From Roseibium limicola (GTDB lineage Bacteria; Pseudomonadota; Alphaproteobacteria; Rhizobiales; Stappiaceae), in contig NZ_JAFLNF010000004.1 in NCBI RefSeq assembly GCF_017313085.1, positions 62,001-126,000 of the forward strand: 64,000 bases of DNA, given 5' to 3'. The position numbers and the translations under genes were made by a program. A model generated the notes under the pieces. It did not search any database. It had not been told where the DNA came from and worked only from the letters and a program-made list of their open reading frames with translations. Of this stretch, positions 40,023 through 47,761 are shown piece by piece (position 1 is the first letter of the stretch; each line of letters starts with the position of its first letter).

Positions 40023-41753
40023 CTATGCCCCAGCGGGTGGGAGAGGTACGGGTGAGGCCAGCCGTTGCCAGGCGCAATAGTGCGACAGAAACACCTCGCC
40101 GTTGAGGCTTGCCAGAAGAGAGCCGGTCTGCAGCTTGTCCATCACCGGGCCCTTGACCTCCGACAGGTGCAGACTGATGTCCATGTCGCGCAAGCGGGCA
40201 TTGATGGCTTCCAGACTTTCCAGAGCCGAGTAATCCAGATCGTTGACCGCGGAGAAAAGCAGCACCACATGGCGGATCTGGCAGCCGTCCGTCACCCGGT
40301 CGAGGATCAGATCCTCCAGAAACCGTGCGTTGACGAAATAAAGGCTCTCATCGACCCGCAGGCTGAGCAGGTGGGGATCGGTTTCGACGGCGTGTCGGTC
40401 GATGTTGCGAAAGTGCTGGGTGCCGGGAACCAGCCCGACTTCGGCCACATGCGGGCGCGATGTCTTGTAGAGGTGAAGCAGCACCGAGAGGAGCACACCC
40501 GAGGCGACGCCGATCTCGACGCCGAGTCCAAGTGTGAGAACGATGGTGGCGGAAACAGCTGCAAAGTCTGAGCGCGAATAGGACCAGGTCTTCTTCAGCG
40601 TCGAGAGGTCGACGAGACTGAGCACGGCGACGATGATGGTCGCAGCCAGCGTGGCTTTGGGCAGAAAGAACACCAACGGCGTCAAGGCGACAGCAGCCAC
40701 GGCCAATCCGAGCGCCGTAAAGGCGCCGGCAGCAGGGGTCTCGGCCCCGGCATCGAAGTTGACGACGGAGCGGGCAAAGCCACCGGTCACTGGATAGCCA
40801 CCGGTGAAGGCCGCGCCGATGTTGGCCATGCCCAGCCCGATCAACTCCTGATCGGGACCGATCCGCTGGCGTTTTTTGGCAGCCAGGGTTTGTGCCACGG
40901 ACATGCTCTCGACAAAACCGATGATAGAAATCAGCACCGCCGGAAGCCAGAGCTGACGCACCAGATCCAGGGACAGGTCGGGCAGGGTGAACGGCGGCAG
41001 GCTTTGCGGCACGGCGCCGACGATGGCAACGCCCTCCCGGTCAAGCTGCAACTGGCTGACAAGAACGGTGGTGACTATGACGGCGGCCACCGGCCCTGCC
41101 TTTGCAATGACGTGGGCCAGGCGCGGCCCCAGGCCAAGCCGGATCAAAAGGGGTTTCAGTCCCTTGCGCACCCAGAACAGGAACCCGGTGGCGCCGACGC
41201 CGAGCAACACGGTCGGCAGATTGATCTCGGAAAGGTGCCCTGCCAGCGAAGCCAGGATCTCGAACAGCGTGTGCCCTTCGGCGGGAATGCCCAGGATATG
41301 CTTCAACTGGCTGGCTGCAATCAACAGGCCGGAGGCGGTGATGAACCCGGCGATCACCGGATGGCTGAGGAAGTTTGCCAGGAACCCGAGACGGAAGAGC
41401 CCGAGAATGACCAGAAAGCCACCGGACAGCAGCGCCAGTGTCAGCGCGGCGACCGCATAGCCCGCAGTGCCCTGCGCGGCCACCTGCCCCACCGCCGTGG
41501 CCGTCAACAGGGAGACCACTGCAACAGGCCCGACCGCCAAAGAGCGCGATGTGCCGAAAACCGAATACAGCAGGATCGGCACGATGGAGGCATAGATACC
41601 GGCTTCCGGCGGCAGACCGGCAAGCAGCGCATAGGCGAGGGACTGTGGGATCAGCATGATGGTCACAATGACCGCAGCAATCAGATCGTTCGACAGGGCA
41701 TGTCGATCATAGCTGCGTCCCCAGTCGAGAACGGGCAGATAGCGTCGCAACAT
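40023..41753 (-). CDS. SulP-family anion transporter with STAS domain
   Basis: This 576-residue protein has the SulP core (about 1-410, MLIPQSLAYALLAGLPPEAGIYASIVP is the signature, split here as MLIPQSLAYALLAG and LPPEAGIYASIVP) and a C-terminal STAS domain (about 440-560). SulP proteins move sulfate, bicarbonate or other anions. With a persulfide-dioxygenase-like protein 100 bp upstream, export or uptake of sulfate or sulfite is plausible, but bicarbonate cannot be ruled out. It is likely in one transcript with the upstream minus-strand genes. Confidence 0.92.
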   Translation of the reverse strand: MLRRYLPVLDWGRSYDRHALSNDLIAAVIVTIMLIPQSLAYALLAGLPPEAGIYASIVPILLYSVFGTSRSLAVGPVAVVSLLTATAVGQVAAQGTAGYAVAALTLALLSGGFLVILGLFRLGFLANFLSHPVIAGFITASGLLIAASQLKHILGIPAEGHTLFEILASLAGHLSEINLPTVLLGVGATGFLFWVRKGLKPLLIRLGLGPRLAHVIAKAGPVAAVIVTTVLVSQLQLDREGVAIVGAVPQSLPPFTLPDLSLDLVRQLWLPAVLISIIGFVESMSVAQTLAAKKRQRIGPDQELIGLGMANIGAAFTGGYPVTGGFARSVVNFDAGAETPAAGAFTALGLAVAAVALTPLVFFLPKATLAATIIVAVLSLVDLSTLKKTWSYSRSDFAAVSATIVLTLGLGVEIGVASGVLLSVLLHLYKTSRPHVAEVGLVPGTQHFRNIDRHAVETDPHLLSLRVDESLYFVNARFLEDLILDRVTDGCQIRHVVLLFSAVNDLDYSALESLEAINARLRDMDISLHLSEVKGPVMDKLQTGSLLASLNGEVFLSHYCAWQRLASPVPLPPAGA

Positions 41754-41853
41754 TGGAAGGGCTCACAGTTTCGGCAGATGGGCATGGATGCGCGACGGTC
41801 TGCGACGCAGCTCCTGTCTGCATCACAGACCGTCGTCAGGGGATCGTGGCCTT

Positions 41854-42738
41854 TTACAGGCCGTTGATGGGGACTTTCAAAAACCGCTTGCCGGTGTCGT
41901 CGGCAGGTGGCAGGTCGCCGCCCCGCATGTTGATCTGCAGCGACGGGATGATCAGTTTCGGCATGTCGAGCTTGGCATCTCGTGCGGTTCGGAAGGCGAC
42001 GAACTCCTCCCGGGATGTGCCGTTGCCGACATGGATGTTGTGGGCCTTTTCGTCGGCGACCGTGGTCTCCCAGCGGATATCGCGTCCGTTCGGCCCATAG
42101 TCGTGGCACATGAACAGACGGGTCTCGTCGGGCAGGCTGAGCACTTTTTGAATGCTGTCATAAAGCGTGCCGGCGTCGCCGCCGGGAAAATCCGCACGGG
42201 CAGACCCTCCGTCCGGCATGAACAGCGTATCGCCGACAAAGGCCGCATCGCCCATCACATGGGTCATGCAGGCCGGGGTGTGGCCCGGCGTGTGTAACGC
42301 CCGACACTCCATGCCGCCGACGCGGTAGGTATCGCCATCCTCGAACAGCTGGTCGAACTGTGAGCCATCACGCTGGAACTCGGTGCCTTCGTTGAAGACC
42401 TTGCCGAACGTCTCCTGTACGATGATGATGTTCGCGCCGATGCCTAGTTTGCCGCCCAGTTTCTCCTGAATGTAGGGGGCGCCCGACAGATGGTCGGCGT
42501 GAACGTGGGTTTCAATCAGCCAGTCGAGCGTGAGCCCGTTTTTCTGGATAAACGCGATGATGTCATCGGCATGGGCGTGGGAAATGCGCCCGGCGGCATA
42601 GTCGATGTCCATGACGGGATCGACGACCGCGCAGGCGGTGGATGCGGGATCCTGGACCACATAGGAAATGGTGTTGGTTGCGGCATCGAAGAACCCGGTC
42701 ACATCGGGACGGATCTCCATATGGGTTGCATAGCTCAT
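41854..42738 (-). CDS. MBL-fold hydrolase of the persulfide dioxygenase (ETHE1/Blh-like) group
   Basis: This 294-residue protein has the metal motif THVHADHLSG (HxHxDH) and the later metal His and Asp in LHTPGHTPACMTHVMGD and GDTLFMPDGG. The group oxidises glutathione persulfide to sulfite with one bound iron; a glyoxalase-II-like function is the alternative. The start at 42738 follows GGAGGAT; the frame is open farther upstream but overlaps the DUF2892 gene. DUF2892 and SulP neighbours support a sulfur role. Confidence 0.85.
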   Translation of the reverse strand: MSYATHMEIRPDVTGFFDAATNTISYVVQDPASTACAVVDPVMDIDYAAGRISHAHADDIIAFIQKNGLTLDWLIETHVHADHLSGAPYIQEKLGGKLGIGANIIIVQETFGKVFNEGTEFQRDGSQFDQLFEDGDTYRVGGMECRALHTPGHTPACMTHVMGDAAFVGDTLFMPDGGSARADFPGGDAGTLYDSIQKVLSLPDETRLFMCHDYGPNGRDIRWETTVADEKAHNIHVGNGTSREEFVAFRTARDAKLDMPKLIIPSLQINMRGGDLPPADDTGKRFLKVPINGL

Positions 42739-42758
42739 GTCATCCTCCATCCGTTGGC

Positions 42759-42968
42759 TCAGCACTTCCGGCAGGTTGTCAGTCCGAGAACGCTGTAAAG
42801 CGGGCAGATGCCGACGAGGGCGGTCAGAACGAGAATGGCGCCAACCAGAAGAGCCAGCCAATAGGCCAAGCCGGTCAAGGCAATCTGCGGTGCGAAGGCA
42901 AGTGCGTAGAGTAGGGCCGCGACAACGAGGCGAAGTCCCCGGTCCAGTCTTCCGATATTCATGCTCAT
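42759..42968 (-). CDS. DUF2892 (YgaP-like membrane) protein
   Basis: This 69-residue protein has two helices (about 12-29 and 32-52) and the DUF2892 features: NIGRLDRGLRL at the start and GICPLYSVLGLTTC at the end with conserved Cys. The same domain is the C-terminal membrane part of the YgaP sulfurtransferase. Small DUF2892 proteins are typical beside persulfide dioxygenases and SQR genes. ATG at 42968 follows GGAGACG; extra codons upstream cover the promoter. Confidence 0.85.
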   Translation of the reverse strand: MSMNIGRLDRGLRLVVAALLYALAFAPQIALTGLAYWLALLVGAILVLTALVGICPLYSVLGLTTCRKC

Positions 42969-43029
42969 GATGTCGTCTCCTCGAACAAACCCGATGAGAC
43001 ATCCTAGACCGTGAGCCGATTGCGCCACG

Positions 43030-43042
43030 GTGACTTCGTCAC
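43030..43042. promoter_or_regulatory. GTGAC-N3-GTCAC palindrome before the sulfur operon
   Basis: GTGACTTCGTCAC is a perfect dyad with a 3-bp centre, about 62 bp upstream of the DUF2892 start and 100 bp downstream of the Crp/Fnr gene. It resembles the half site TGTGA/TCAC of Crp/Fnr proteins with one base less between arms. It may bind the neighbouring regulator. No other site in the gap looks similar. Confidence 0.4.
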
Positions 43043-43144
43043 ATTGGAACGGACGTTCGATCGAGCAGGGGGAAGGGCTGCGAAGCAGCTGCAGGAGATG
43101 CGGAGAGCGCGAAATGCGGGAGCTACCTGTCTGGCGATCTGTGT

Positions 43145-43825
43145 CTAGCGCTCGCCAGAGGAGTGCGCCAACCGCTCGATGCCGCTCTTGCCGACAAGAT
43201 GCACTTCACCGCGCGCCTGTTGCACCCAGCCGCGGCGCTGAAATTCCGCCAGCGTTCGAGAAATCACCTCGCGCGCCGTACCCAGCTCGTTGCCGAGGGT
43301 CTGATGGGTGGCGTGAACGACATTCTTCGTGTCGGCCAGCTCCAGCAACCGCGCCGCCAAGCGCACGTCCATGCGTTGAAAGACGATGTCGTCGATCAGG
43401 GTGAAGAGGTCGGTGATGCGTCGGGAGTAAGCCTTGAAGATGAATTCGCGAAACACCGGGGACCTGCCGGCCAGGTCGTCGAAGGTCTTGCGCGGAATGG
43501 CGACCGCTGTGATGTCCGTTTCGGCAACGCCGTCAGCGGAGTAATCCTCATAGGCCAGCATGCAGGCGGTGGTCAGGACACAGCTTTCGCCAGCATGCAC
43601 CCGGTACAGGAAGACTTCACGTCCGGTTTCGGATTTTTGCTGCACCCGGACGGTGCCATCAAGCAGCAGCAGGAGGTTGTCGGCAGACTGACCCGGCGCA
43701 AATATTTCGGTGCCGGCAGCGACAGAGATGACCTGCGACCCGCCCACGAGCACATCCCGCAAGTCCTGCGGCAGTCGGCTCAATCCTGCGAACTGAGAGA
43801 TCCAGTCGGTGGTTTGGACATGCAT
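43145..43825 (-). CDS. Crp/Fnr-family transcriptional regulator
   Basis: This 226-residue protein has an N-terminal cyclic-nucleotide-binding fold (about 20-140) and a C-terminal winged helix (about 150-215, GNELGTAREVISRTLAEFQRRG). The N-terminal Cys cluster of oxygen-sensing Fnr is absent; Cys occurs only near 82-88 (ESCVLTTACM). The two spaced Cys (about 82 and 88) could sense sulfide or oxidants. It is in the same direction as the sulfur genes and 177 bp upstream of them, so it may control them. Confidence 0.88.
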   Translation of the reverse strand: MHVQTTDWISQFAGLSRLPQDLRDVLVGGSQVISVAAGTEIFAPGQSADNLLLLLDGTVRVQQKSETGREVFLYRVHAGESCVLTTACMLAYEDYSADGVAETDITAVAIPRKTFDDLAGRSPVFREFIFKAYSRRITDLFTLIDDIVFQRMDVRLAARLLELADTKNVVHATHQTLGNELGTAREVISRTLAEFQRRGWVQQARGEVHLVGKSGIERLAHSSGER

Positions 43826-44733: not shown

Positions 44734-44976
44734 GCCCGGCTCCGTCGACCTGAGCTGCAGGTCGAGCGAAGACCGAGGCTTGGCTTCCTGGAGGTGGCAC
44801 AAAGCCCGCCTTCCATGCAGACGGCTGCAGCGGGAACCGTCGCCGTCAAATTTTGAAGCTTGAAGCACATTGAAGCTTGAGTTCGACCGGCCTATCTATC
44901 TCTCACAACCATCGTTCACACCATCCGCAAGGCCCTCTTGGCCGATCCGGAGCGATCTTCAGACAAGGAGAGAGCC

Positions 44977-45636
44977 ATGTCGTTCATGACCACACTCATG
45001 AAAAAATTCTCCATGCCCACCCCGGAGGAGGCTCTTCCCGGACGGGCGCAGCCGATTGTTCCCGAGGAACCGCACTTCGTCTCAGGCCGCCCCATGACCG
45101 GACCGTTTCCCGATGGCTTCAAGACGCTGATCGTGGGCATGGGCTGTTTCTGGGGTGCAGAGAGGGTCTTTTGGCAGATGGACGGCGTCTGGGTGACCGC
45201 TGTCGGATATGCCGGTGGCTATACGCCGAACCCGACCTACCAGGAAACCTGCACCGGCCGAACCGGCCATACGGAAGCAGTCCTTGTGGTCTATGACCCA
45301 GCCAAGGTCTCGCTTGAAGCGCTGCTGCAGGTGTTCTGGCAGGCCCATGACCCGACCCAGGGCATGCGTCAGGGCAATGACACCGGAACGCAATATCGTT
45401 CGGCCTGCTTTGCCCAGACCGAGGAGGATCTGGCTGTGGTGTTGGCATCACAGCGGGTCTATCAGGATGCTTTGAAGGCCTCTGGCGTCAAGGCTGACAT
45501 CACCACGGAGGTGCGTCAGCTTCCCCTGGCTGAATTCCAGTATGCCGAGGCATCACACCAGCAATATCTGGCCAAGAACCCTGCTGGCTATTGCGGCATC
45601 GGTGGAACAGGCGTGTCGTGTCCTGCTTTCGCCTGA
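44977..45636 (+). CDS. msrA: Peptide methionine sulfoxide reductase MsrA
   Basis: This 219-residue enzyme reduces methionine-S-sulfoxide in proteins, with thioredoxin as the donor. The catalytic Cys57 lies in [10 protein letters not shown], with [13 protein letters not shown] and the resolving-Cys tail [14 protein letters not shown] long N-terminal lead (about 50 residues, rich in Pro/Met) precedes the core, as in the longer MsrA type. ATG at 44977 follows AAGGAGA. Confidence 0.96.
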
Positions 45637-45965: not shown

Positions 45966-46283
45966 ATGTCTCGCCGTTTCATCGCCAGCTATTTCATCGG
46001 GGCTTGCCTCGTCATGATCCTGGCGGCCGTTCAGCCGGGGCCAGGAGAGGCAGTCGTTGTGGTGTCCTCTCCCTGGGGCGTGCCAGCAGCTGAAGTGGTC
46101 GCGCGCGCCGGCGGACGCATCGTGTCGACAAGCCCAGGCGGATGGGTTGCGGTGTCCATGGAGGGCGCTCAGAGCAGCATCGGCCAATATTATTCCGCGG
46201 GAGCAATGGCGGTCATGTCTGCAAAGGTTTGGCAGAGCTGTCTTGGCGCGATTCCGGGAAACTGGGGGAGGTTATCATCATGA
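45966..46283 (+). CDS. Small membrane-anchored protein coupled to the chemoreceptor
   Basis: This 105-residue protein has one N-terminal helix (about 7-26) and an outside domain with [31 protein letters not shown] and a [18 protein letters not shown] end. Part of the pattern (ARAGGR then GWVAVS, then AGAMxVMSA) looks conserved enough to be a real family. Its TGA overlaps the ATG of the chemoreceptor (ATGA), so the two should be made together. I know no function for it; a periplasmic sensor subunit or a chaperone for the receptor are both conceivable. Confidence 0.6.
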
Positions 46284-47761
46284 CAACATCTGTAAGCAAC
46301 AGCCTTGATCGGCTGAGAGAAGCATTTTCCAAATACGTCGTCTATTTCATCTGGATGAATGTCCTGCTGATCATGGTCAGCAGCTGGTGGCATCCACACG
46401 CCCCGACCGTGATCCTGTCTGGCGCCGCCTTGCTGGTTGGAGCTGCTGCGACAGGCACCTGGATCAAGTTCGGAACCAAGGCGGAAACCCGCCTCGCCAC
46501 ATCAATTTCCCTAGCGGCGCTGGTTGGGTTGCTGGTGGCCTCCATGGCGAGCGAGGGGCAAGGCTCGTCCTTCCAGATCGATGCCCATATGTACTTCTTT
46601 GCCGTCATGGCGGTTCTGACTGGATGGGTCGACTGGCGTTCCATCGTGGCTTATTCGGCTGTTGTCGCGGTTCACCACCTGACCTTGAATTTTGCTTTGC
46701 CGTGGGCCGTATTCCCGGATGGCTCGAACTTTCTCCGGGTTGTCTTTCACGCTGCCATCGTCGTTGTCGAGGCCTCCATCCTGTTGTGGGTTGTCAGCCA
46801 GCTCGAACGCGCCTTCGTCGGCGTTGAAAAGTCACGCACAGATGCTGAAGCGGCCAATATCCAGGCCTCCAGCATGCAGCAGGCGGAAGAGCACCGGATG
46901 GAAGGGGAGCGTCAGCGTCAGGCTCTCATCGGGGTTCGGATTCAGGAGTTCCGAGACGAGATTGAAAGCAAACTGGCCTCTGTAACGACGCAGGTCCGGC
47001 AGATGCGTGACGCATCCCAGAACCTGGGCGGCGTTGCCGAGGATACATCGGGTCGGGCTTCGCAAGCCTCACGGGCTGCAGAAACAGCGTCCCAGAACGT
47101 GCAGACGGTGGCCAGTGCGGCTGAAGAGCTTTCGGCCAGCATCAACGAGATCACCCGTCAGGTGGATGAGACCACAAGGATCGTGGCGCAGGCGACCGAC
47201 AGTGTTCAGACCAGCAATCGCAAAGTTGCCGGCCTGTCGGAATCTGCTAATCGGATCGGTGAGGTTGTGACGCTGATCCAGGCGATTGCCGAACAGACCA
47301 ATCTGCTTGCCCTCAATGCGACCATCGAGGCCGCGCGCGCGGGCGAAGCCGGTCGCGGATTTGCGGTCGTTGCCTCCGAAGTAAAGGAGCTGGCGACACA
47401 GACATCCAAGGCGACTGAGGAAATCGGCGCGCAGATCGCTGCCATTCAAGGCGAAACCAAAGATGCGGTGGAGGCAATTTCAGCCATCGCCACCACCATG
47501 GATCAGGTCAACAACTACACGGCCACGATTGCTGCTGCGGTGGATGAACAAGGTTCCGCCACCAACGAGATCTCGCGCAATGTCGCCGAAGCTGCAAATG
47601 GCACCGGCATTGTGGCGAGCAGTGTTGGTGGATTGACCGAAGCAGCTGAAACAACAACTTCCTCTGCGGCCAGCGTGGCTGACGTCGCAGCAGAACTCGA
47701 GCGCGAAGCCGAACAGATGCGGCAGGCCGTTGATGACTTCCTGAAGGATGTCGCAGCCTAA
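46280..47761 (+). CDS. Methyl-accepting chemotaxis protein with six-helix His-rich membrane sensor
   Basis: This 493-residue protein has six predicted helices in residues 1-175, no large periplasmic ligand domain and no clear HAMP. Conserved-looking residues lie in or near the helices: His103 (DAHMYFF), His132-133 (AVHHLTL), His157 and Glu164 ([10 protein letters not shown]). The signalling domain spans about 220-493 with the hairpin tip [30 protein letters not shown] split at about 332-365. It would signal to CheA from a membrane-embedded cue, perhaps a metal, haem or gas. Start at 46280 follows GGGGGAGG and overlaps the upstream gene. Confidence 0.9.

Follow-up and report, generated by a model that had tools for sequence, protein, structure and literature searches.

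The 64,000-nucleotide stretch of the Roseibium limicola genome analysed here (the window) contains two overlapping forward-strand genes, which raise the question of whether a small anchored protein and a chemoreceptor form one sensor, and of what that sensor might respond to. The first gene (45966..46283, +) encodes a 105-aa protein with a predicted N-terminal membrane anchor and periplasmic ferredoxin-like domain, and the second (46280..47761, +) encodes a 493-aa chemoreceptor, as judged from its translation and its match to the Pfam family MCPsignal. The stop codon of the former and the start codon of the latter share the ATGA at 46280..46283 (+), and a Shine-Dalgarno-like stretch is found at each of the two genes (AGGGA; GGGGGAGG). 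A longer receptor frame starting at 46142 was disfavoured because the common N-terminus of the homologues fits ATG 46280, from which D101, H103, H132, H133, H157 and E164 are counted. The coordinates, reading frames, overlap and residue numbers of the first-pass annotation were exact. The 4.5-Mb genome has 20 MCPsignal matches, the receptor among them. Just upstream of the pair lies msrA (44938-45636; peptide methionine sulfoxide reductase, identified from its translated sequence), whose synteny with the pair is confined to Roseibium and Stappia. On the minus strand, at 40023-43825, a sulfate-permease-like gene, a persulfide-dioxygenase-like metallo-hydrolase and a Crp/Fnr-type regulator look like a sulfur-oxidation unit.

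MCPsignal was the only Pfam family above the cut-off in the receptor (PF00015, E = 9.7e-31), covering residues 307-461 (47198..47662, +), and no HAMP domain preceded it or figured among the 25 top-scoring Pfam families listed (E <= 10). An AlphaFold model built with 37 homologues (mean pLDDT 90.9, pTM 0.87) predicted a membrane sensor module in residues 1-190 (46280..46849, +) with helices at 8-37, 43-64, 68-88, 99-116, 119-139 and 151-189, the last of which is unbroken to residue 189 and runs on as the signalling helix. The six helices and the lack of HAMP had both been proposed from the sequence in the first-pass annotation. The module matched no Pfam family, including MASE, MHYT and 7TM, when tested with 37 and 41 homologues, and a known sensor domain was ruled out by Pfam and NCBIfam. 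Its profile found no sequence match among PDB chains and its model no significant PDB fold match; rhodopsins occupied the top Foldseek rows, at TM-scores of 0.25-0.3 and 10-20 A rmsd that are meaningless, and a rhodopsin-like fold was rejected.

Since 10 Lys or Arg residues flank the receptor helices on the inner side and 1 on the outside, both ends of the sensor module are predicted to lie in the cytoplasm, which places H103, H132/H133 and H157 in the outer third of helices 4-6. In the model, D101 and H103 (46580..46588, +) mark the start of helix 4 at its outer end, H132-H133 (46673..46678, +) lie in the outer part of helix 5 near its end, and H157 (46748..46750, +) is in the outer part of helix 6 near its start, with E164 (46769..46771, +) deeper, in the middle of that helix. 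These positions along the helices suggest that the histidines may be close to one another in space. An alignment of 41 sensors from alpha- and gammaproteobacteria, which are 17-62% identical to that of the window, retained only three invariant columns, H103, H133 and H157; H132 was kept in over 90% of the sequences, and position 101 was D or E. Position 164 was E in most sensors, Q in several to many and V or I in a few. The four histidines singled out in the first-pass annotation were thus borne out by conservation, while Glu164, which it had listed with them, is not essential.

The small partner was predicted by AlphaFold (mean pLDDT 84.8) to consist of an anchor helix at residues 3-22 (45972..46031, +), followed by an alpha/beta domain at residues 30-95 (46053..46250, +) with the order beta-alpha-beta-beta-alpha-beta-alpha, the last helix of which carries C92 (46239..46241, +); one helix and a small outside domain had been expected from its sequence. 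Cys92 was Cys in all 139 sequences reaching that column (139/139), and G79 was invariant along with it in one alignment of small proteins. The protein belongs to no named Pfam or NCBIfam family, which, with the same result for the sensor, agrees with the earlier view that both components are uncharacterised. Its model had no significant fold match in the PDB, and a subtilisin-propeptide-like fold was weak (E = 0.4) and was kept merely as support for a ferredoxin-like fold. No relative was found in the viral contigs searched. Decaying copies were observed beside otherwise full-length receptors, with an internal deletion in L079 and loss of the Cys end in L080, and the small gene of L141 is possibly frame-broken.

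Across all sets, the small gene adjoined 144 of 156 distinct alphaproteobacterial receptor genes, upstream in 141 and downstream in 3. In the fetched loci it was located at the 5' end of the receptor gene, with a 4-base overlap in 16 related pairs and short gaps or overlaps in the remainder. Receptors at only 30-45% identity, in which the small gene was missed by BLAST, still carried it 5', and the apparent exceptions L216 and L240 contained a diverged copy. A survey of 121 relatives detected the sensor in 71 genomes and the small gene in 55. An independent GTDB genome scan yielded 80 loci, alphaproteobacterial as far as named, of which 78 had a small-gene match in the slot upstream of the receptor. 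In 289 alphaproteobacterial genomes, the sensor and small gene occurred together in 29, compared with 5 expected (P = 2e-24); this value and the adjacency rule out chance pairing. The co-occurrence by which the first-pass proposal of a two-gene unit was to be checked was therefore found, and we regard the two genes as very probably a dedicated functional pair. No other neighbours were found to be conserved across genera, synteny being within-genus alone (e.g., msrA and pabB), and no copper genes were otherwise seen clustering with the pair. Two loci, L101 and L232, have one small gene common to tandem six-TM receptor copies. In plasmid records, annotation of the pair goes no further than 'hypothetical protein' and either 'methyl-accepting chemotaxis protein' or 'response regulator'. 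A Bacillus velezensis plasmid record (NZ_CP061939.1:996-1232) includes part of this alphaproteobacterial sensor at 48.8% identity, possibly through contamination or misassembly.

The pair is not limited to chemoreceptors. In Sphingomonas and Roseococcus, the same sensor heads hybrid histidine kinases (HisKA, HATPase, receiver, Hpt), and in Haematobacter it heads a long 'response regulator' of the hybrid-kinase kind; the small gene is directly upstream of these kinase-headed versions as well. Retention of the partner with kinase outputs marks the pair as an input module that does not belong to one chemotaxis system. The first-pass annotation had suggested a two-part chemotaxis sensor, of which the dedicated pair stands in Alphaproteobacteria and the restriction to chemotaxis does not.

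Homologous sensors in gammaproteobacteria often adjoin a different anchored periplasmic protein. In Marinobacter and seven further genomes, the gene directly upstream of the sensor gene is of the SCO1/SenC type, and its product has the features of that family, namely PF02630 (run on three of the proteins), CxxxCP, a distal His assigned by eye and a hydrophobic N-terminal anchor. By contrast, the 105-aa partner has no PF02630 match, a ferredoxin-like model and a single conserved Cys, and the alphaproteobacterial partners in general have no CxxxC or His/Met copper motif. In other gammaproteobacteria, DUF6436-type CxC proteins are encoded immediately upstream or downstream of the sensor gene; in L331-L340, DUF6436 repeatedly adjoins a six-TM chemoreceptor, and most copies have CxC motifs near both domain ends. 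Among the gammaproteobacterial sensors that retain the histidines, many lack an adjacent thiol partner, which in those bacteria could be unnecessary or encoded at another site. Around the gammaproteobacterial pairs, neither oxidase nor copper genes were seen.

The small domain also occurs apart from the sensor. It is related to the C-terminal domain of DUF2243 membrane proteins (HHalign prob 97.5%, obtained with a four-row alignment, one row of which has a wrong first residue outside the aligned part), and this domain carries the same invariant Cys; fused copies were located at L225:2308-3105, L228:2833 onward, L230:3201-4004 (-) and L244:1498 onward. DUF2243 is a His-rich membrane protein with invariant membrane histidines of its own, and its kinship to the six-helix sensor was ruled out (HHalign prob 1.5%). 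Further relatives come directly behind MFS transporter genes, at a distance of a few bases (L222, L223, L224 and L231), and also follow a SecDF locus. The small domain may therefore serve several polytopic membrane proteins as a general accessory, which tempers the reading in terms of copper given below.

With wide conservation of the histidines, a partner in the same membrane that keeps its Cys, and linkage of the pair whatever the output, all established at the level of sequence, we propose that both genes encode a single two-part sensor combining a three-histidine site with an anchored thiol partner, copper being its most likely ligand; we hold this complete reading at slightly under an even chance. 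As to its parts, it is fairly probable that the histidines form a metal or haem site, and the identification of copper as the ligand is a tentative one that falls somewhat short of probable. H103, H133 and H157 would together bind a metal at a site accessible from the periplasm, with a predicted three-histidine copper geometry resembling CuB of the haem-copper oxidases, which is itself a three-histidine site. The anchored thiol partner would load this site or set its redox state, as SCO/SenC metallates CuB. A change in occupancy or redox state, reflecting copper supply, oxygen or respiratory redox, could then shift helix 6, which leads straight into the signalling coiled coil, and thereby alter CheA activity, or kinase activity in the kinase versions. 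In oxidases, the CuA and CuB centres are supplied with Cu by SCO/SenC proteins (PMC12617631). It is mainly this role, together with the SCO/SenC partners of the gammaproteobacterial sensors and the likeness of the site to CuB, that leads us to prefer copper, and replacement of the small protein by SCO or DUF6436 CxC proteins speaks for copper or thiol-redox chemistry rather than for the binding of a free gas. The two-part reading also draws support from the joint loss of histidines and small gene described below, and from fusion of the small domain to DUF2243, likewise a His-rich membrane protein.

Two other readings of the sensor chemistry are, in our judgement, each unlikely. The histidines could bind haem b, alone or with copper, for direct sensing of O2 or NO as proposed for HtrVIII, with the partner helping haem insertion or protecting the site. 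Such a sensor would be consistent with histidines at similar depth on several helices, with SCO/SenC and haem-copper oxidases belonging to one pathway, and with the HtrVIII-like joining of six helices to an MCP domain, haem binding having been suggested for the helices of that transducer (PMC13401364). However, the partners in gammaproteobacteria comprise a copper chaperone and CxC thiol proteins but no haem proteins, and the sensor has no sequence match and no significant fold match in the PDB; its kinship to HtrVIII or to the oxidases is at most putative. Equally, the receptor could be free of metal and the partner could use its Cys, CxC or CxxxC to sense oxidants or the disulfide state in the periplasm and pass the signal on by docking to the outside of the six-helix module, the histidines and the acidic residue being structural or part of a proton-linked switch. 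An anchored periplasmic domain with a conserved cysteine is indeed the sole property common to the three partner types, and the 6-TM enzyme ImcA, restrained by the membrane protein IsmP, offers a precedent (PMC10904736). Three invariant histidines on three helices nevertheless exceed the needs of docking, and the four receptors without the histidine core have also lost the partner, the small gene being absent in three and decayed in one (Fisher P = 0.001 for the association, which is indicative only, as the sequences are related).

Less probable still is that the small protein acts as a mere assembly or stability factor for the receptor, with the signal being another periplasmic or membrane-soluble ligand. 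Overlapping genes often encode assembly partners, and the relatives after MFS genes and in DUF2243 fusions suggest that the domain serves several membrane proteins, but this would account neither for the invariant Cys nor for the exchange of the partner for SCO or DUF6436 proteins.

Extended beyond the window, the copper reading would describe a widespread sensor family of Proteobacteria in which a CuB-like site in the six-helix input module of chemoreceptors and hybrid histidine kinases is metallated or read by dedicated but interchangeable anchored thiol partners. The partner would be the small ferredoxin-like protein in Alphaproteobacteria and either SCO or DUF6436 in Gammaproteobacteria, and the sensor would link movement to copper, oxygen or the redox state of respiration; at this breadth we consider the proposal possible, though on balance doubtful. 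Many chemoreceptors have no recognised ligand-binding domain, and one such class now gains a testable chemistry and a dedicated partner, while two uncharacterised elements, the small protein and DUF6436, become linked to a chemoreceptor class. For annotation, the signatures are (D/E)xH ... HH ... H in the sensor and the invariant Cys in the small partner. The findings suggest that bacteria, soil, marine and plant-associated species among them, have put copper-chaperone chemistry to use in signalling. Our search of the open-access literature revealed no description of a six-TM MCP accompanied by a partner of the small, SCO or DUF6436 type.

Several known systems can be compared with this pair. 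SCO1/SenC and the haem-copper oxidases likewise comprise a membrane-anchored periplasmic protein, in their case a copper protein, serving a membrane protein with a three-His copper site (CuB), whereas the client here is a signalling receptor and the alphaproteobacterial partner differs in fold and has only one Cys. MASE and MHYT are also polytopic membrane input modules with several outputs and no periplasmic domain, and differ in that neither was matched by the sensor homologues in Pfam. HtrVIII, the aerotaxis transducer of Halobacterium salinarum, resembles the receptor in having six TM segments joined to an MCP domain, and an intramembrane haem or metal site has been proposed for it (PMC13401364). 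It is archaeal, and the likeness is one of architecture. We know of no anchored partner of HtrVIII. In Pseudomonas aeruginosa, ImcA is a six-TM signalling protein under the control of a separate membrane-anchored iron sensor, IsmP (PMC10904736), but its output is a GGDEF enzyme and IsmP is a large CHASE4-PAS-GGDEF-EAL protein; the Foldseek match of the sensor to ImcA was weak (prob 0.57, TM-score 0.49, rmsd 7.3, E = 1.7). The Caulobacter copper chemoreceptor McpR senses copper and redox state through His and Cys (PMC10579534), and is, unlike the window receptor, cytoplasmic, without TM helices, equipped with HAMP and without a partner protein. HtrVIII, ImcA-IsmP and McpR are thus the nearest systems, each having one feature in common with the pair and lacking others.
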